A stretch of 64,000 nt of DNA from Candidatus Binataceae bacterium (GCA_036495685.1 DASXMJ010000038.1:1-64000), one strand, 5' to 3'; shown: positions 5,259 through 27,453, counted from the first letter of the stretch. Numbers and translations: made by a program. The notes: generated from the letters alone by a model not told the origin.

Positions 5259-6764
5259 ATGGAGTCGAAGCCAGCGTCCCCTGCATTTGAGGCACCGCCG
5301 AGGCAGGGCGGCCCGCGCCATTTTCATTTGCTCTGGGACACGGAACTCGAAGAGCTCCAGGCGGTTCTGCACTCCATTCGGAAGCATCGCTCCGACGTGC
5401 TCGAGAATTGGTACCAGCTGTACGAACTGCACTTCGCGGATAGCCGCAGCCTCAATCGTGCCGAGTTCATGGAGATCTTCGGCAGCGAGCTCGACTCCAC
5501 CTTGCGCGATCTCCTCGCCAAAGATCTCGATCGGTTCGTCGCCGATGTGCGCCGAATTGGCGAGATGCTGGCAGAACGTGGCGTACCCTTTTCCGAGCTG
5601 ATCGTGTCGATGCACCTGTTCGAGGAGAGTGCCGCCACCGCGTTTCCGTTGCTTCCTCCGCCTCTGCCGCGCATCTACCAGGCCTTCGACAAGCTGAGCC
5701 ACATCCGGATGATCGCGCTGGCCGATACTTACTTCCGATCCAGGAGTGCGGTATCCAGCGCGCGAATCCAGGCCATGGAGCGCGAGGCCGGAACGCTGCC
5801 GCCCGCGGGGCGCAGCCATTTTCACGGCCTGGTCGGAGCCAGCGCGGCGATGCATCGCCTGTACGAGCGGATTGAGGCTGCCGGGTCAACCCGCGGCACT
5901 ATCCTCATCGTCGGTGAAAGCGGAACCGGTAAGGAACTCGTCGCGCGTGCCATCCACGAATGCGGCAAAAATTCCGGCGCGCCCTTCATCGCGCTCAACT
6001 GCGCCGCCATCCCGAAGGATCTGATCGAGAGCGAGCTGTTCGGTTACAAACGCGGGGCTTTCAGCGGAGCCAACGTGGAGTACCTCGGGCTGTTCCGCGC
6101 CGCGGAAGGCGGTACCCTGTTTCTCGACGAAGTAACCGAAATGAGTCCTGCCACGCAGAGCAAGCTGCTGCGCGCTATTCAGGAACGTGCCGTGCGGCCG
6201 GTCGGTTCGACTCGGGAGATTCCCGTCGAGGTGCGCCTGGTGGCGTCGACCAATCGCGATCCAGAGGAGGCAGTGCGCAATGGTCAGCTACGCCAGGACC
6301 TCTATTATCGGCTGCAAGCGGGCGTGATAACCATTCCGCCCCTGCGCGATCGGCTGGAAGATGTGCCGCTGCTCGCCGAACACTTCGTCGACCTGTTCAA
6401 CGCGCGTCAGACCAGGCTAACTCCGGTATCCGGCATCGACGAAGCAGCGCTGCGCGCGCTGTACCAGTACCGATGGCCTGGCAACGTTCGCGAGCTTTCC
6501 AATGCGATCGAGGGCGCCTTCACTTTCGGTCGCTCTTCCCTGATCCGCCTCGAAGATCTGCCGCCTGCGCTGACCGGAGGCGTGGTCGCCGATCGCACGA
6601 TCTCGGAGGCGAGTTTTCCGATCGGTACGTTCGCGGATAGTGAACGCGTAATTATTCGCCGCGCGCTCGAAGCGACCGGCGGCAACAAGGTCCAAGCCGC
6701 CAAGCTGCTGAAAATCTCGCGCAAGAAACTTTACGCAAAAATCGCTAAGTACTCACTGGAGTAA
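5259..6764 (+). CDS. Sigma-54-dependent transcriptional activator (AAA+ / Fis HTH)
   Basis: This is a 501-residue protein. Residues 1-180 are an alpha-helical N-terminal region with no receiver Asp; it resembles helical sensor domains such as RsbR N-domains, but I cannot name it surely. Residues about 195-430 are the AAA+ core with Walker A GESGTGKE near 219, the sigma-54 contact loop as GAFSGA (Thr replaced by Ser) near 266, and Walker B LFLDEV. The C-terminus (about 465-501) is a Fis-type helix-turn-helix. It activates RNA polymerase-sigma-54 at distant enhancers. Its target is not evident: it is monocistronic, with 101 bp before the flavoprotein gene. Confidence 0.92.
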   Translation: MESKPASPAFEAPPRQGGPRHFHLLWDTELEELQAVLHSIRKHRSDVLENWYQLYELHFADSRSLNRAEFMEIFGSELDSTLRDLLAKDLDRFVADVRRIGEMLAERGVPFSELIVSMHLFEESAATAFPLLPPPLPRIYQAFDKLSHIRMIALADTYFRSRSAVSSARIQAMEREAGTLPPAGRSHFHGLVGASAAMHRLYERIEAAGSTRGTILIVGESGTGKELVARAIHECGKNSGAPFIALNCAAIPKDLIESELFGYKRGAFSGANVEYLGLFRAAEGGTLFLDEVTEMSPATQSKLLRAIQERAVRPVGSTREIPVEVRLVASTNRDPEEAVRNGQLRQDLYYRLQAGVITIPPLRDRLEDVPLLAEHFVDLFNARQTRLTPVSGIDEAALRALYQYRWPGNVRELSNAIEGAFTFGRSSLIRLEDLPPALTGGVVADRTISEASFPIGTFADSERVIIRRALEATGGNKVQAAKLLKISRKKLYAKIAKYSLE

Positions 6765-6866
6765 GCAGCGGCGCACCTGCCCGGCGCTGGTTGTGCGCGA
6801 GATACAGCCGACTTAAAAAGGGGGGCAGGCAACTGCCGCCGCAACGAGCTACCATCAAGCCCTGAT

Positions 6867-8375
6867 ATGCCAGGCAAATCGTCCCCCGCTTGCGATGTCC
6901 TGATTGTGGGCGCCGGCAATGCCGCCCTCTGTGCCGCGCTGGCCGCGCGCGAGCAGGGCGCCCGAGTCATCGTTCTGGAGCGAGCGCCCGAAAAGGAACG
7001 CGGAGGCAACACCGCCTTCACCGCCGGCGGATTTCGCGTCGCCTACAACGATCTCGACCAGTTGATCAAACTGATGCCGGACCTCTCCGATGAGGAAAAG
7101 CGCAACACCGAGTTCGGCACCTATACCGAGGACCAGTACTTCGAGGACATCGGTCGCGTCACCGAATACCGCGCCAATCCCGATCTGGTTGAACTGCTCG
7201 TGCGTCGCAGCCACCCTACGCTGTTCTGGATGCGCACCAAAGGCGTGCGCTGGGTCCCCATGTACGGTCGCCAGGCTTTTAGGGTCGACGGCCGTTTCAA
7301 ATTCTGGGGCGGCCTAACGGTTGAGGCGTGGGGCGGAGGTCGCGGCCTCATCGACACGCTTCACGAAGCCGCGCGCCGCGAGAAGGTGGAAGTACGCTAC
7401 GGCGCGCGGGCGCTCGCTCTGCTTGCCGATGACACCGGTGTTCACGGCGCACGCGTCCGCGAAAACGGCAAGACCATAGACGTGACCGCCCACGCGGTCG
7501 TGTTAGCTAGCGGTGGCTTCGAAGCGAATGCGGAGTGGCGGGCACGTTACCTTGGGCCAAACTGGGATCTCGCCCGAGTGCGCGGGACCCGCTTCAACAC
7601 CGGCGACGGAATTCGGATGGCGCTCGACGCGGGCGCGATGCCCTATGGACACTGGTCCGGATGCCACGCCGTCGGATGGGATCGCAACGCTCCCGAATTC
7701 GGCGACCTCGCGGTTGGCGACGGCTTTCAGAAGCACAGCTATCCGCTCGGCATCATGCTCAACGCTCGAGGCTGCCGGTTCGTCGATGAAGGCGCGGACT
7801 TCCGCAACTACACCTACGCAAAATACGGGCGTGCAATTCTCGAACAACCGGGACAATTCGCCTGGCAGATCTTCGACAAAAAGGTTGCGCATCTCCTGCG
7901 TGACGAATATCGAATCCGACAAGTGACCAAGGTTAGCGCCGAGCGCCTCGAGGAGCTGGTCCGTAAACTCGAGGACGTCGATGCCGGAGCCGCGCTCGCC
8001 GAGATCGGTGCCTTTAATCAAGCTGTCGACCGCACCATTCCGTTCAATCCCAACGTAAAGGACGGGCGATGCACCCGCGGCCTCGCCGTAGCGAAGAGCA
8101 ACTGGGCCAACCCGATCGACGAGCCCCCCTTCATGGCCTTTGCGGTAACTTGTGGTATCACCTTCACCTTCGGCGGGCTGAAAATCACACGCGAAGGCGA
8201 GGTAGTAGACACCGAAGGCGACCCCATCTCCGGCCTGTACGCAGCCGGGGAACTCGTCGGCGGCCTCTTCTATTTCAACTACGCGGGGGGTTCCGGCCTG
8301 ATGGCTGGAGCGGTATTCGGCAAACTCGCCGGCACCAGTTCGGCGCTATATGCAGCAGGGCGGGGCACTGGCTGA
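6867..8375 (+). CDS. FAD-dependent dehydrogenase, TcuA / fumarate-reductase family
   Basis: This 502-residue flavoprotein has an N-terminal dinucleotide fold (IVGAGNAALCAA, residues 13-24) and a C-terminal FAD motif near GLYAAGELVGG. The pattern GNAAL followed by ERGGNTAFTAGGFR is typical of the tricarballylate dehydrogenase (TcuA) group within the fumarate reductase / succinate dehydrogenase flavoprotein superfamily. There is no signal peptide, so it should act in the cytosol or on the membrane face. TcuA normally passes electrons to the Fe-S membrane protein TcuB, which is not encoded nearby. The substrate is probably a polycarboxylate or an enone, but this is not shown by the sequence. No obvious Shine-Dalgarno precedes the ATG. 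Confidence 0.8.
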   Translation: MPGKSSPACDVLIVGAGNAALCAALAAREQGARVIVLERAPEKERGGNTAFTAGGFRVAYNDLDQLIKLMPDLSDEEKRNTEFGTYTEDQYFEDIGRVTEYRANPDLVELLVRRSHPTLFWMRTKGVRWVPMYGRQAFRVDGRFKFWGGLTVEAWGGGRGLIDTLHEAARREKVEVRYGARALALLADDTGVHGARVRENGKTIDVTAHAVVLASGGFEANAEWRARYLGPNWDLARVRGTRFNTGDGIRMALDAGAMPYGHWSGCHAVGWDRNAPEFGDLAVGDGFQKHSYPLGIMLNARGCRFVDEGADFRNYTYAKYGRAILEQPGQFAWQIFDKKVAHLLRDEYRIRQVTKVSAERLEELVRKLEDVDAGAALAEIGAFNQAVDRTIPFNPNVKDGRCTRGLAVAKSNWANPIDEPPFMAFAVTCGITFTFGGLKITREGEVVDTEGDPISGLYAAGELVGGLFYFNYAGGSGLMAGAVFGKLAGTSSALYAAGRGTG

Positions 8376-22601: not shown

Positions 22602-23045
22602 TCACAAAGCCGGCTTTGGGGCCACGCTTCGCGTCGCGATTCGGTAAAGCACCGCACAGCCGGCAGCCAGCAGCAGGTCACGCCCCAGGTCGACCCACGG
22701 ATTCGCACCCACCGCGCTGGTTCCGAAGCAACCGCAATTGACGGTTATCCCGCGCGCCAGCGCCAGGGCGAGCGCGATAGAGTACAGACTCGCCATTAAC
22801 AGCAGCCCCAGCGCGCCAAGGCGCTTCTGCCAGCCGGTCAGCACCATCGCTCCCGCCCCGATTTCGAAGGGCACAATCGAAAGCATGAACGGGACAATCA
22901 CCGCGCCGGGCAGGATCCGAAATGACGCAACGCTGTCAGCGAATTCAATGCCCTCATTGCGCTTGGCCCAACCCGCATAGATGAAGACCCCCCCGATTAC
23001 CAGGCGAAGCATCCATTCGAGGTACTTTGAAGATCGTCGGGTCAT
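22602..23045 (-). CDS. MauE/DoxX-family membrane protein
   Basis: Start ATG 23045 overlaps the stop of the rhodanese gene in an ATGA, giving 147 residues. Four hydrophobic helices are visible, and the loop VNCGCFG carries the Cys pair typical of MauE proteins, which are thought to help disulfide formation or heme and quinone-cofactor maturation in the periplasm. The first helix MLRLVIGGVFIYAGWAK fits DoxX/MauE. It is the last gene of the copper operon, next to a rhodanese, which suggests a shared thiol-redox role. Confidence 0.8.
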   Translation of the reverse strand: MTRRSSKYLEWMLRLVIGGVFIYAGWAKRNEGIEFADSVASFRILPGAVIVPFMLSIVPFEIGAGAMVLTGWQKRLGALGLLLMASLYSIALALALARGITVNCGCFGTSAVGANPWVDLGRDLLLAAGCAVLYRIATRSVAPKPAL

Positions 23046-23638
23046 TTCTCGACTGGTAGTCCGGCTTCCGTCCATCCCGACCATCCCTTGGTGAACACGC
23101 GCACCTGCGAGAACCCGAGGCTCAGCAACGCGCTAGCGACCATCCGGCTGTCGTGGCAATCGCCCCCTGAGCAATAGACGACAATCGATTTGTCCTTTGA
23201 CGCGTCCAGGGTCGGGCGCAGGCGTCGGTAATCCGCAGCGAAATCATCACGCGACAGATTCAACGCACCCGGAATGTGGCCCTGTTGGTAGAATGGCGCC
23301 GCACGCGCATCCAGGATGATGGTCTGATGGTCTCCGACCACGTTGCGGAACTGATCGAGTGAAATCGTATCCGCGTCGGACAGGCGAAACGCGGGTGCCT
23401 CGACCAGCGTGGTGAGTTCTGCCGCCAGGCGCTGCTCCGGAGTCTGATAGACGAGCGGCAGCGGTGACGCGCGAAGATAGTTGATCGTCAGGCCGGCCAG
23501 CAGCGAGGCCAGGGCGAGGCAGATCACGCCCACGATATCGCGCGTGAAAGTCCCGCTTCTGGGCGGGCCCGTCTCCCCCACGTGCGCGACCGGAGCAGGC
23601 TTAGGAGGATGTTGGCCGGTCAGAGATGCACTTTCCAT
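23042..23638 (-). CDS. Membrane-anchored rhodanese domain protein
   Basis: This is 198 residues from ATG 23638, whose start lies inside the end of the SCO gene (19-bp overlap). Residues about 33-55 are a single transmembrane helix (DIVGVICLALASLLAGLTI), leaving the rhodanese domain probably outside the cytoplasm. The domain has the second-strand LDARAAPFYQQGHIPGAL and the active-site loop VVYCSGGDC with the catalytic Cys. Rhodaneses transfer sulfane sulfur or bind metal thiolates. Tight overlap with SCO and MauE genes ties it to copper or thiol handling. Confidence 0.87.
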   Translation of the reverse strand: MESASLTGQHPPKPAPVAHVGETGPPRSGTFTRDIVGVICLALASLLAGLTINYLRASPLPLVYQTPEQRLAAELTTLVEAPAFRLSDADTISLDQFRNVVGDHQTIILDARAAPFYQQGHIPGALNLSRDDFAADYRRLRPTLDASKDKSIVVYCSGGDCHDSRMVASALLSLGFSQVRVFTKGWSGWTEAGLPVEK

Positions 23639-24282
23639 TGGGGGTGATCTTCCGCCGAAGCCGATCCGGTTTCCGCCGCTCGCCGGATGTCGCTCGACAC
23701 CAGCGCCGGCTCCGCGTGCGAAGCGGCGTATTGATAGAGCTGTCGCCCGTCCGGTCCGACCAGAAAAAATTCCAGCACGTGATCTACCGTACCGTCGGCC
23801 TCGCGCTGGCGAACGAGTTTGAACTGATTCATCAGCTGCTCGATGTCCGCGGGCGAGCCGGTCAGAAACAGCCACCCATCCTGATTTGCCCCTTGTTGCT
23901 TGGCGTAGTTGAGCAGCTCGGCGGGCCCGTCATGCTCTGGATCGACCGTAACTGAGACGAACCAGACCTTGCTGGCGAGCAGCGGCCCAAGCCGATTCGC
24001 AATCAGTCGCATCCGCGACGTCAGCATCAAGCACGGCCCCGGACAGCTAGTGTAGATAAAATCGAACAGAACCGGTTTCCCCTTGAGCGAGGCCAGCGAG
24101 ACTTTTTTGCCGTATTGGTCGGTAAGCGTGAGATTCGGCAGGCAGTCGCCGGTGCTCGAAGGCGAGTACGCTCCCGTCCGCTCCACTCCACGGTTGCATC
24201 CGACCGCAACCAGTCCCACGACCAGGGTTGCGGCCAGGAGCAGACCGATACGCGTCGAAAATCGAGTTGAATCGTTGGTCAC
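23620..24282 (-). CDS. SCO1/SenC family copper chaperone (lipoprotein)
   Basis: This 220-residue protein has a lipobox LVAVGCNRG (Cys29), so it is probably anchored to the periplasmic face. The thioredoxin-like domain carries the copper motif CPGPC (Cys80 and Cys84) and the ligand His168 (VDH), the full SCO copper site. SCO proteins deliver copper to, or reduce cysteines of, the CuA site of cytochrome oxidase or other cuproenzymes. It lies 5 bp after the CopD stop. No oxidase genes are present in the window. Confidence 0.92.
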   Translation of the reverse strand: MTNDSTRFSTRIGLLLAATLVVGLVAVGCNRGVERTGAYSPSSTGDCLPNLTLTDQYGKKVSLASLKGKPVLFDFIYTSCPGPCLMLTSRMRLIANRLGPLLASKVWFVSVTVDPEHDGPAELLNYAKQQGANQDGWLFLTGSPADIEQLMNQFKLVRQREADGTVDHVLEFFLVGPDGRQLYQYAASHAEPALVSSDIRRAAETGSASAEDHPQWKVHL

Positions 24283-24287
24283 GGTTT

Positions 24288-25247
24288 CTACCCCGTGGAG
24301 GTCCGGTAAATTCCCGAGGATGGTGAGTAAAGAGTATCCATCGCCATCCCGGGATGCGACATCATATGGCCTCTTGCGGGCGGGGTGTTCGCGAGGAGCG
24401 CCGCAAGGCCCACGACCACGACCCCCAAAACCAGCGATTCAATTCCCACGTTGCGCAACAGGATTCGCTGGGTACTGGAGGCGGCGACGTCCGGTATCAG
24501 GCGCTCACGGTTGTAGGCTCCTATTGAGAGCACCGCGCAGAACACTACCACCTTGACTATCAGGGTTCGTCCATAGCTTGAGAACAGCAAACGGTCGACG
24601 CCGAAGCCCAGTCCCTGGTACGCGGTGTAAGCTCCGCTGAGCACCAGCGCTGCGACACTCCATGCAGCTATCGTCGATACCACCCGTGCCGCCCGCGCTA
24701 CCCAGTCCGAGGAAGGTTGCGCCCGGCGGGTTACTATCCAGAGTCCCAGCAACGCACCGATCCAGCTTCCGGCCGCGGCTTCATGAACCAGGTAGATGAG
24801 AATGGCTATGCTTCCATGGTCCACCGCGTGACCGAGCTGTGCTTCACAGAACATGAGCACGGCGCCGAGGCTCGCCAGCGCCACTGCCCGGGCGGTGCTT
24901 GCCAGCGGTGCAAAGACGCAGACTAGCAGCAGCGCCGCGACTATCAGTGCCCAGCGCCACACTTCACCTGAGTGCGTTTGGGTCATGACCTCGGGGACGA
25001 GGGGAAGTGCCTCGCGCCACGATACTCCCGCCATTTCGGCGGTAAGCTTGAGCACCATGATCGGCGAAACAAAAAAAATCGCGATGGCCATCAGGCGCCA
25101 TGCCGGCAACAGGGCCGCTATGGTCGAGTCGGCGGGGCAGCCGTCGAAACCGCGTACCGCGAGCACGAAGGTCGCCGTCCCGAAAGTTGCTGCCGATGCG
25201 AACACGAGCGGCCACTCCAGGAGTGCTCTGCCGTAGAGTGCTTCCAT
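24288..25247 (-). CDS. CopD-family copper transport membrane protein
   Basis: The start is ATG 25247 (MEALYGRALLEW), two bases after the CopC stop, giving 319 residues; a longer frame to 25322 overlaps CopC. About eight hydrophobic helices are visible. Conserved polar residues of CopD include the H-x-GE region (QTHSGEVWRW), GHAVDH and LVHEAAAGSWIGALLGLW, with His residues likely to bind copper. A Met/His-rich tail (RGHMMSHPGMAMD) adds another possible copper site. CopD is an inner-membrane protein thought to import copper with CopC. The context supports this. Confidence 0.88.
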   Translation of the reverse strand: MEALYGRALLEWPLVFASAATFGTATFVLAVRGFDGCPADSTIAALLPAWRLMAIAIFFVSPIMVLKLTAEMAGVSWREALPLVPEVMTQTHSGEVWRWALIVAALLLVCVFAPLASTARAVALASLGAVLMFCEAQLGHAVDHGSIAILIYLVHEAAAGSWIGALLGLWIVTRRAQPSSDWVARAARVVSTIAAWSVAALVLSGAYTAYQGLGFGVDRLLFSSYGRTLIVKVVVFCAVLSIGAYNRERLIPDVAASSTQRILLRNVGIESLVLGVVVVGLAALLANTPPARGHMMSHPGMAMDTLYSPSSGIYRTSTG

Positions 25248-25249
25248 CG

Positions 25250-25627
25250 TCAGGAGCCGCTGGCGACGCTGAAGGAATAAGAGCCTTCGGTGTGATGCGT
25301 GTCGATTCCGACTACGCGCCATTTCACGAGATAGTTCCCCGGCTTGAGCCGGGGAACCTTGACGGCCAGGATGTAACCATCGTCACTGACGGTGGGTGCT
25401 CCCTGCGCGAGATTTTGCCCGCTTGAGTCGATGACCGCGAGTTGCGCGAAGAGTTTCTCAATGGGCGCGTCATACTTGATCCGTACCTCGGAGGGCGGCT
25501 CATTGAGGGTTTGGCCGGCGGCCGGAGCCTCCGACTCGGGGAAGGAGTGAGCCGAGACCAGCGCCGTGCTGGCGGCCAGGACACTCAGCAGTCCCGCGGT
25601 CGCCGCCATTAAAGTGGAAGCTCTCAT
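25250..25627 (-). CDS. CopC periplasmic copper-binding protein
   Basis: This 125-residue protein has a signal peptide (about 1-26) whose predicted cleavage after VSA leaves His as the first mature residue (HSFPESEAP). The C-terminus carries GIDTHHTEGSYSF, the D-x-H part of the CopC Cu(II) site. These match the histidine-brace type site of CopC. The immunoglobulin-like strand pattern (VRIKYDAPIE) is intact. The start overlaps the stop of the upstream barrel gene in an ATGA, and the next gene is CopD, the usual partner. Confidence 0.93.
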   Translation of the reverse strand: MRASTLMAATAGLLSVLAASTALVSAHSFPESEAPAAGQTLNEPPSEVRIKYDAPIEKLFAQLAVIDSSGQNLAQGAPTVSDDGYILAVKVPRLKPGNYLVKWRVVGIDTHHTEGSYSFSVASGS

Positions 25628-26550
25628 TCCGGAAATCCTTTATTGATGGTCCAGTTTCCCAGTCGTGGGATGAATGAATCGTAGAAGATATCTAGCAATC
25701 CAAGTATCGCCGCATGGTTGCTCGAGACCGTTGCTTGGTTGAGCGCGAGTTGCGTGCCCAGTGCCAACTCAAAATGGTAACTCACGTAGCTAATGCCAGG
25801 CGTCGCCAGAAGGGTGGGAAAAGTTTGGCCACGGGGCCCCCTTATCAGCTGGTCGTAGTTAAACTCGTTGAAGAGATACAGGTTGCGAAAAGGCCACTTG
25901 AGCCCGATGTCCTGAACATTGTTGCTCAGATAGGGCAGCGAGTACTCGATGACCGCGTCAGCAAACATATGATGGTTAGTAGGTCCTCCGACGGCTGGCA
26001 CGTAACCGAAATCGCTCTGGATGCCGAACGGCCGCATGTACTTAACCCAAGGCGAGTTCGGAAGGTCGCCCATTGCCTTTTCCCAAAGGAAGACCGGGCC
26101 CAGGGCGGTATGGCTGGATGATTGAATCCCGGTGTTCCCGGTGGGCAACTGCAGCTGCAGCGCTAGCGAAGTCAGGAACTCGTGCTTCAGCGAGTAGAAG
26201 AGGGCGTATTTGGCAAAGGTGGTCAGTCCGAAAAAGCCCTGTTGGCTCGGTCCATGGTACGGTGATTGGTGCTCCCAGCCGGTGCCGATCCCCATGCTGA
26301 CCCGCGGCATCTGATTGTCATCGATCCAAAGCACCTTCTCGATCGACCAGGATATCGAATAGTTGTTGGCGCTGCTGTCCTTGACCCACGCGGGCATGAA
26401 GTCCAGTTCGTTGGCGGGAGTCGGGTCCTGCGTAACCAACGGTTCCAGGAATACATAGTCGCCAACCACACCGTGCGCCCATGCTTGTCGTGCTGCCAGA
26501 TTTAGATTCGTGATCGAAAGCACGACCACGAACACAATGCTCTTGCGCAT
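25624..26550 (-). CDS. Secreted beta-barrel-like protein with a predicted N-terminal His
   Basis: This 308-residue protein has a signal peptide whose likely cleavage site (RQAWA) would leave His as residue 1 (HGVVGDYVF). The rest shows short amphipathic strands, many aromatic residues at strand ends and a Phe-containing end, as in outer-membrane transport or porin-like proteins. I do not recognise a named family. It overlaps CopC by four bases and follows the DUF2318 and small-protein genes, so a part in copper passage across the outer membrane is the simplest idea. This is inference from context and the N-terminal His. Confidence 0.7.
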   Translation of the reverse strand: MRKSIVFVVVLSITNLNLAARQAWAHGVVGDYVFLEPLVTQDPTPANELDFMPAWVKDSSANNYSISWSIEKVLWIDDNQMPRVSMGIGTGWEHQSPYHGPSQQGFFGLTTFAKYALFYSLKHEFLTSLALQLQLPTGNTGIQSSSHTALGPVFLWEKAMGDLPNSPWVKYMRPFGIQSDFGYVPAVGGPTNHHMFADAVIEYSLPYLSNNVQDIGLKWPFRNLYLFNEFNYDQLIRGPRGQTFPTLLATPGISYVSYHFELALGTQLALNQATVSSNHAAILGLLDIFYDSFIPRLGNWTINKGFPE

Positions 26551-26644
26551 GAAATCCTCATCTGCGTCGAAACCTAATCGGCGCGCCGTTAAACGCAGCT
26601 GGGCGCGACGATGCCGCGTCTCAAAGAATGTCCCAAGGAATCCG

Positions 26645-26959
26645 CTAGGCGAGCGGCTTCGGTGGGGGAGGATCCGGAGTGAAAATAAAGTCGATCAATC
26701 TCGCCAGGGGTCTCTCAACGATCGACTGGCGCGGAAAGATCGCGGACAGAGATATCCCCGATGCTGATCGCGCGGGGATTATTTTGGCAACCGGGTTGGC
26801 CGCCTGTAGCGGATGACAGACATCAAGGCGAATCTCTGGCCGCTGAGGTCCAGGCTTGATACACAGCCCGGTCACAGCCGAAAAGCTGCCAAGCAAAAGG
26901 CAGCTCGCCAGAAAAACCGCGAGTGCTCGCGAGCAGTATTTAGTCGAGGGCAGGCGCAT
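26645..26959 (-). CDS. Small secreted protein of unknown function
   Basis: This 104-residue protein has a hydrophobic N-terminus (ALAVFLASCLLLGSFSAVTGLC) that is either a signal peptide or a lipoprotein-type signal. The rest is Pro-rich and ends PDPPPPKPLA. Two Cys remain in the mature part (GLCIKPG and DVCHPLQ). No family is recognised. It lies 5 bp after the DUF2318 stop and 94 bp before the barrel gene, within the copper operon, so a periplasmic accessory role is possible. Confidence 0.6.
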   Translation of the reverse strand: MRLPSTKYCSRALAVFLASCLLLGSFSAVTGLCIKPGPQRPEIRLDVCHPLQAANPVAKIIPARSASGISLSAIFPRQSIVERPLARLIDFIFTPDPPPPKPLA

Positions 26960-26964
26960 GTTGG

Positions 26965-27453
26965 TTAGAAGAGTGCCCCGTGCTCCTTAAGCTGTCTGGT
27001 GTCCACGGTGACCGTCTTGCCACTGTCCTGCACGATGAGCCGAATCGGCGCGCAGGATCCGACTCCGGTACGGGAGTCGAGTGGGTAGCGATTGCCACAG
27101 ATGCGACACATCAGGTAACCGCGTGAGGAGGTGTAGCCCTTGCGGTATTGCGAGCACTGCTGGCACGCGTCGAAAGCCCCCTGGACTTTGCCCGCCCGAT
27201 CGCGTCCCAGGATGAAACGGATTTGCTTGCCGCCATCGTCGCGATAGGAAAAAAACCGGATCTCCCCGCGGCCGAGTTCACCGCCCGGAATACTGACCGA
27301 GTCCCGGCCGGCAAGCTGCGTAACCCGGGGGCCAACTCCAACCACCACAAGCGACATCGTCACCGCAGTCAGAACGACGGCCGACGCTATCATGATCCGT
27401 CCGGGAAGTTTGCTCCTGGCGTGCGCCACCGCCGATAACGCTCCCATCGACAA
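26965..27453 (-). CDS. DUF2318 Fe-S/metal-binding membrane protein
   Basis: This 162-residue protein has one N-terminal transmembrane helix (about residues 18-43) and an exported C-terminal domain with the DUF2318 pattern: ACQQCSQYRKGY followed by MCRICGNRYP, two CxxC pairs, and a further Cys in GSCAPI. DUF2318 domains are annotated as Fe-S or metal-binding and occur with metal permeases. As first gene of this operon it sits beside copper genes instead of iron permeases. The frame starts MSMGAL; an ATG two codons in is also possible. Confidence 0.85.
   Translation of the reverse strand: MSMGALSAVAHARSKLPGRIMIASAVVLTAVTMSLVVVGVGPRVTQLAGRDSVSIPGGELGRGEIRFFSYRDDGGKQIRFILGRDRAGKVQGAFDACQQCSQYRKGYTSSRGYLMCRICGNRYPLDSRTGVGSCAPIRLIVQDSGKTVTVDTRQLKEHGALF

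Follow-up and report, generated by a model that had tools for sequence, protein, structure and literature searches.

A copper-linked eight-gene set in a Candidatus Binataceae genome and its putative CutF/CruR-like leader

Positions 22,602 to 27,453 of a 64,000-nucleotide (nt) stretch of DNA from Candidatus Binataceae bacterium (GCA_036495685.1 DASXMJ010000038.1:1-64000, hereafter the window) carry eight adjoining genes with copper- and thiol-related products. The window corresponds to contig C38 in the draft, metagenome-assembled genome (MAG; 4.69 Mb, 245 contigs, 96% complete) of a soil-dwelling, uncultured member of the Binatota. Here, we focus on the composition of this gene set and on its second gene, which encodes a small cysteine-containing protein that we describe as a putative regulatory leader. 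Reading the open reading frames (ORFs) of the window places all eight on the minus strand, from 27453 down to 22602. Six of the eight products match Pfam families (FtrD-like/DUF2318, CopC, CopD, SCO1/SenC, rhodanese and MauE), and neither the small Cys protein nor the product of the third gene, referred to as Barrel, has a match in Pfam or NCBIfam. The features are the following:

26965..27453 (-): FtrD/DUF2318, the first gene, upstream of the leader (PF10080, E 1.1e-17, above cut-off)
26645..26959 (-): small Cys protein of 104 aa, putative CutF/CruR-like leader (41 family members with fixed Cys-to-tail spacing; synteny-only control; architecture as in PMC9426467 and PMC9973294)
26816..26818 (-): codon for Cys48, the one Cys that is invariant in the family, within D-V-C-H-P (alignments)
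26657..26677 (-): candidate arrest motif P95-D-P-P-P-P-K101, with the stop three residues later (alignments, tail spacing)
26551..26644 (-): leader-Barrel gap of 94 nt, containing the Barrel ribosome-binding site (gap survey, pairing test)
25624..26550 (-): Barrel, predicted outer-membrane 12-strand beta-barrel channel (AlphaFold2 (AF2) model, fold comparison)
25250..25627 (-): CopC, periplasmic copper binder with a His immediately behind the signal peptide (PF04234, E 3.5e-20)
24288..25247 (-): CopD, inner-membrane protein (PF05425, E 1.3e-13; NF033808, E 2.4e-32, under its equivalog cut-off)
23620..24282 (-): SCO1/SenC with a CPGPC (CxxxC) motif (PF02630, E 3e-26)
23042..23638 (-): rhodanese, membrane-anchored, with a CSGGDC motif (PF00581, E 7.6e-20)
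22602..23045 (-): MauE/DoxX-like membrane protein with a CGC motif (PF07291, E 3.5e-23)

The first-pass annotation of the window had described eight genes on one strand with three overlaps, which is what we find: Barrel and CopC overlap by 4 nt, SCO and rhodanese by about 19 nt, and rhodanese and MauE by 4 nt, taking 23045 as the start of MauE. This start, in an ATGA overlap, is probably the correct one; the longest ORF begins at 23084. FtrD is separated from the leader by 5 nt, CopC from CopD by 2 nt and CopD from SCO by 5 nt, so that the 94 nt between leader and Barrel are the sole long junction in the set.

Next, we determined how often these genes occur together in 46 distinct related loci from draft genomes. 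The first-pass annotation had proposed a search for a conserved octet, and such a unit is ruled out, as all eight genes occur together in only one of the 46 loci, the window itself. FtrD is present in 34 loci and the leader gene in 32. Barrel-CopC-CopD is found in 29 loci, 24 of which also have the leader gene, and FtrD accompanies Barrel-CopC-CopD in 21. An SCO gene joins Barrel-CopC-CopD in eight loci, and SCO-rhodanese-MauE is found in four; outside the window this trio sits behind FtrD, or behind another barrel, one that starts with CACGCGVF, and a TlpA-like protein. The sister species (G001) keeps the genes from FtrD through SCO, without rhodanese and MauE. The gene set of the window thus brings together modules that are separate in relatives: FtrD, the leader, Barrel-CopC-CopD and an SCO-rhodanese-MauE tail. 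Orthologous operons lacking CopC, CopD or SCO, which had been named beforehand as evidence against a dedicated loading pathway, do exist: some loci have FtrD but no CopC/CopD, and in others Barrel-CopC-CopD stands alone, with no SCO, rhodanese or MauE. The arrangement is not due to chance, because leader-Barrel-CopC-CopD (24/46) and FtrD with Barrel-CopC-CopD (21/46) both recur.

The first-pass annotation had listed a small secreted Cys-containing protein in the second position and had overlooked that it is built like a regulatory leader. We gathered 41 relatives from Binataceae, which fall into 29 groups at <40% linker identity. All members share a signal-like N-terminus (in the window leader, assigned by eye from its hydrophobic start), one invariant Cys in a D/N-x-C-H-P motif, and a C-terminal tail, P-[DE]-x-PPP-[KRE]. 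Between Cys and tail the sequence has diverged, with a median linker identity of 24% among the 29 groups. The distance between the Cys and the final position of the tail (K), on the other hand, hardly varies: 14 groups have 53 residues, 13 have 54 and two have 55, and over all members the range is 53 to 56. Exactly three residues follow this K in 35 of the 41 leaders. So that the search model could not itself impose this spacing, we also took any ORF ending in PP upstream of each Barrel gene, leaving the leader hidden Markov model unused; in 22 of these 26 loci a Cys lies 52–55 residues ahead of the last Pro. The sequences found place the family, so far, in Candidatus Binataceae only. Among 198 genomes of the phylum, no match was found outside the family, although remote members could escape this search, and the other families of the class gave one marginal match (E 0.04).

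The leader genes precede three unrelated kinds of outer-membrane gene: Barrel-CopC-CopD, the CACGCGVF barrel with TlpA and SCO, and TonB receptors, the last in four loci and confirmed by Pfam. At some loci a different small protein takes the leader's place. Unrelated Cys-rich small proteins precede Barrel homologues at L134 (4660-5088, -), L135 (9142-9672, -) and L126 (5919-6341, +). Those at L134 and L135 belong to Binatota of other families and end in proline-rich tails, which suggests that the same operon has acquired different leaders.

To our knowledge, few built-in metal sensors of the nascent-chain type have been studied, and the known copper-responsive leaders rest on few cultured Proteobacteria. 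In CruR of Bordetella pertussis, a DUF2946 protein, 52 residues separate C90 from P142 and three more lead to the end; it controls a copper-dependent switch of a TonB receptor (PMC9426467), and translation arrest at its RAPP motif was demonstrated in vitro (PMC12992588). The window family shares with CruR an N-terminal export signal, a Cys site, a proline motif three residues from the C-terminus and a distance of about 52 residues between the first Cys and the last Pro. In both, a long gap behind the leader is followed by an outer-membrane transporter, and TonB receptors follow some Binataceae leaders too. Unlike CruR, leaders of the window family usually come second in their operon, preceded by FtrD. 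In Rhodobacter capsulatus, CutF, whose operon is turned on by copper, controls a multicopper oxidase via a masked ribosome-binding site, and CutF-like proteins, grouped in 29 clusters, are reported mostly from Pseudomonadota and Bacteroidota (PMC9973294). The window leader has the outward features of CutF-like proteins: it is shorter than 150 aa (104 aa), starts with a signal-like stretch, has PP within its 15 C-terminal residues and is followed by a same-strand gene within 1000 nt (a 94 nt gap). Like CutF it has a site able to mask the next ribosome-binding site, whereas CutF carries CXXXC and heads a multicopper oxidase.

Proteins of the DUF2946 type also occur in Binatota, and in the five we compared the distance from Cys to last Pro is 51–52 residues. 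Leaders of this type in Binataceae, at L182 (1402-1737, +) and L185 (1489-1794, -), have CPLC or CALC and RAPP near the end, and adjoin TonB-receptor-like genes. Their matches to PF11162 are weak, below the curated cut-off; they serve as an internal yardstick for the window's leader family. In the source genome, PF11162 has no match. The window leader matches the copper-responsive DUF2946 regulators in architecture and geometry, without detectable sequence homology.

The gap behind the leader measures 94–130 nt up to the next start in about 30 loci. For 31 loci, with starts picked by a simple rule, we compared the pairing between the tail Pro codons and the next ribosome-binding site with that in synonymous recodings. 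The mean is 7.5 pairs against 5.4 in the synonymous versions (p = 0.0023), a value that is optimistic given that the loci are related. In the window, the tail Pro codons form 6.6 pairs with the Barrel ribosome-binding site against 1.4 expected. The tail Pro codons are rich in CCT (24% against 10%; p 5e-6, again optimistic for related loci). Two further candidates did not hold up. Support for a conserved stem-loop as a general feature downstream of the leader is weak (z scores from -4.0 to +1.4), and the pairing of tail codons with the ribosome-binding site alone stands out, modestly. A C-over-G bubble as the hint of a Rho site is not decisive; the surplus of C amounts to a few percent in most loci.

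The product of the third gene is predicted to be an outer-membrane channel. Its AF2 model is a 12-strand barrel (predicted local distance difference test (pLDDT) 74, predicted template modelling score 0.71) that compares best with FapF (Z 18.4) and a COG4313 channel (Z 18.0). The score with PcoB is lower (Z 12.2) and Barrel has no Pfam match, which leaves Barrel as a PcoB/CopB homologue without clear support. Among the Barrel relatives in named genomes are some from Candidatus Binataceae MAGs, and the labels of others read Deltaproteobacteria or Proteobacteria; the source organism is thus a Binatota of this family. The mature protein starts with an invariant His-Gly, CopC with His and the PmoB of the source genome with His-Gly. 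The mature N-termini of Barrel (window 25624-26550, -; AHGVVGDYVFLEPL) and PmoB (L066 6772-8061, -; AHGEAGDEPFLKDL) are similar, and both begin with His. A second Barrel copy of the source genome (L125 5295-6400, +; G000:C11) is diverged, spread over two frames and adjoins an ammonium-transporter-like gene; in several relatives Barrel copies are interrupted by an internal stop.

For FtrD, a Rieske fold with a membrane anchor and with cysteines only is predicted. Its model consists of one N-terminal membrane helix and a Rieske-fold domain (AF2 pLDDT 82). All 50 matches listed by Foldseek (best E 1.1e-3) are of the Rieske type, as are all 50 listed by VIA (best Z 10.3, root-mean-square deviation 2.8, 97 residues aligned). 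The 2Fe-2S cluster of Rieske proteins has CXH...CXXH ligands. These are absent from FtrD, which has Cys where His is expected; its invariant cysteines in the alignments (C97, C100, C116, C119 and C134) make up a CXXC-x15-CXXC motif and a fifth Cys. A Cys-only motif of this kind in a modelled Rieske fold suggests a site for electron transfer or a metal-thiolate site. FtrD and FetA of the FtrABCD and FetMP systems likewise have a DUF2318 domain with CXXC pairs and thiol-redox partners nearby, and the biochemical function of FetA is given as unknown (PMC10783030). The window FtrD differs in being a soluble domain anchored by a single helix, with no iron permease and no FetBCD, and copper genes instead.

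Together, these results lead us to favour, as probable though far from certain, a copper-supply operon controlled by a sensor that reads copper as a nascent chain, a CutF/CruR-like leader that is new in sequence. FtrD, as a membrane-anchored Rieske-fold redox protein, would be translated first. The second gene would then yield a short exported leader whose signal peptide engages Sec. With the ribosome at the C-terminal P-D-P-P-P-P-K, the Cys-His-Pro site of the leader would be exposed and translation would pause. Copper on the emerging Cys may alter the duration of this pause, and the paused or moving ribosome would set, in one direction or the other, whether Barrel-CopC-CopD-SCO-rhodanese-MauE is produced. 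This may occur by setting free the Barrel ribosome-binding site, which the proline codons could mask, or by blocking Rho. Barrel would provide outer-membrane entry, CopC periplasmic binding and CopD inner-membrane handling, with thiol-based delivery by SCO, rhodanese and MauE. The clients would be the cell's copper enzymes generally, and not CuMMO (copper-containing membrane monooxygenase) alone.

The first-pass annotation had instead read the set as a dedicated pathway for loading an exported copper enzyme, for which a copper-containing membrane monooxygenase (CuMMO) of the source genome would be the most likely candidate. It was right in supposing that the genome could encode a CuMMO outside this stretch: subunits B and A are encoded on two short contigs, and contamination is unlikely because the sister species also has PmoB, with 79% identity. 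CopC, CopD and SCO would suit copper delivery, and Barrel and PmoB have the mature N-terminal His-Gly in common. The CuMMO locus, however, carries its own SCO paralogue. In the SCO tree, the CuMMO-locus SCOs and those of leader/FtrD operons form different groups, with the window SCO placed among nine other operon SCOs (support 100/99). Across 35 genomes of the same family, 29 of which have FtrD and 15 CuMMO, there is no association with CuMMO for FtrD (Fisher p 0.37), Barrel (p 1.0) or the leader (p 0.14). The flanks of 42 fetched FtrD/Barrel loci contain no CuMMO, heme-copper oxidase or multicopper-oxidase gene, while a positive control found genes where expected. Cuproenzymes of these kinds, which were to be recorded near orthologous loci, are not seen in those flanks. 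On the CuMMO locus's own SCO, the SCO tree and the co-occurrence data, we reject an operon devoted to one exported copper enzyme, most likely CuMMO, as very improbable. What stands of that description is the copper-linked set, with its predicted outer-membrane channel, CopC, CopD and SCO; the dedicated CuMMO pathway does not. Less improbable, if still on the unlikely side, is an operon mainly for the assembly of heme-copper oxidase (CuA) via SCO, in which rhodanese and MauE keep thiols reduced. Oxidases are possible clients because the source genome has three COX1-type loci without an adjacent SCO and only three SCO matches in all, of which the window SCO is the best; in a sister operon, moreover, SCO is followed by a COX2 (CuA)-domain protein (L167 7162-7764). 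Many relatives, however, have Barrel-CopC-CopD and lack SCO, two oxidase loci have CtaG-like proteins of their own, and the 42 loci are as free of oxidase genes as of CuMMO.

The gene order resembles that of CopABCD/PcoABCD, in which an outer-membrane barrel is also followed by CopC and CopD. In a copper-resistance operon of this CopBCD/PcoBCD type, Barrel and CopC would sequester copper and high copper would switch the genes on, as copper does in the CutF operon (PMC9973294), and Barrel does align with PcoB. The window set differs in having no CopA and in its added leader and SCO tail, SCO being a supply factor; no CopA-type multicopper-oxidase motif is present in any fetched flank, and the fold of Barrel is nearer to FapF and the COG4313 channel. 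We therefore consider resistance unlikely. A little less likely still is a role for the small Cys protein as an ordinary carrier of copper in the periplasm and not as a leader. Its signal-like N-terminus and conserved Cys-His-Pro would fit a carrier, but the near-random linker of fixed length, the PPP[KRE] conserved just three residues ahead of the stop, the long conserved gap behind the gene and its movement between unrelated outer-membrane genes would not.

Several observations weigh against a copper-supply operon under a nascent-chain sensor. CruR has CXXC and RAPP, whereas the window family has one invariant Cys (CHP) and PPP[KRE]. PF11162 has no match to the window protein (E up to 1) or to ten related or positionally equivalent proteins (E up to 10), and hhalign of the leader profile against the five Binatota DUF2946-type proteins finds no homology; with a single Cys instead of CXXC as well, these tests speak against membership of DUF2946, which we reject. 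Ten of the 31 loci have no pairing excess, and the total fold energy of the gap in the window is ordinary (z -0.1). Three genomes carry Barrel operons with no detectable leader, so that the leader is not obligatory. FtrD, lying upstream of the leader, is probably outside its control. The fold matches carry no substrate information. What we observe is the gene content and its recurrence, the geometry of the leader and its changing outer-membrane partners, the predicted folds and the independence from CuMMO; arrest, binding of copper, the direction of control, passage of copper through Barrel and the clients are inferred.

Beyond a copper-supply operon, the leaders may represent a new family of metal-sensing arrest peptides, a more tentative proposal to which we give somewhat less than even weight. 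In this family, with no detectable kinship to DUF2946 and confined so far to Binataceae, a single Cys-His-Pro 52–53 residues before the last Pro of PPPK would sense copper, proline codons would mask the next ribosome-binding site, and the same leader would stand before three kinds of outer-membrane transporter; overlap with one of the 29 CutF-like clusters (PMC9973294) is possible. If this is true, one short stretch would be an arrest peptide and an RNA switch at once. Meeting this geometry again in a seemingly independent family of an uncultured phylum would also mean that the spacing between metal site and arrest site is what is constrained, and not the sequence, for which the 41 members offer natural variants. 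The leader family may further point to outer-membrane proteins that are likely to transport copper. For a DUF2318 protein, a Rieske fold with cysteines only is now predicted, and untying the operon from CuMMO removes a wrong lead.

Some related loci contain further genes of note. The CuMMO-locus SCO (L067 2066-3214, -; G000:C188) was read as a single ORF with an upstream periplasmic domain, beside genes for a GMC-type oxidoreductase and cytochrome c. At L167 (7162-7764, +) and L170 (4746-5348, -), the small COX2 (CuA)-domain protein directly after SCO in leader-headed operons has the motif CDSGCACATGSM, with Thr at the expected second CuA His; it is possibly a client or a copper carrier. A PCYCGC-motif protein (PF13798, E 4.7e-10) is encoded in a leader operon at L041 (9663-10172, +), with SCO and rhodanese on either side. 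This locus also has two leaders (6441-6806, -, and 7368-7685, +) in divergent operons on both sides of a single FtrD; each operon has a copper/thiol gene set of its own, and L036 has the same layout.

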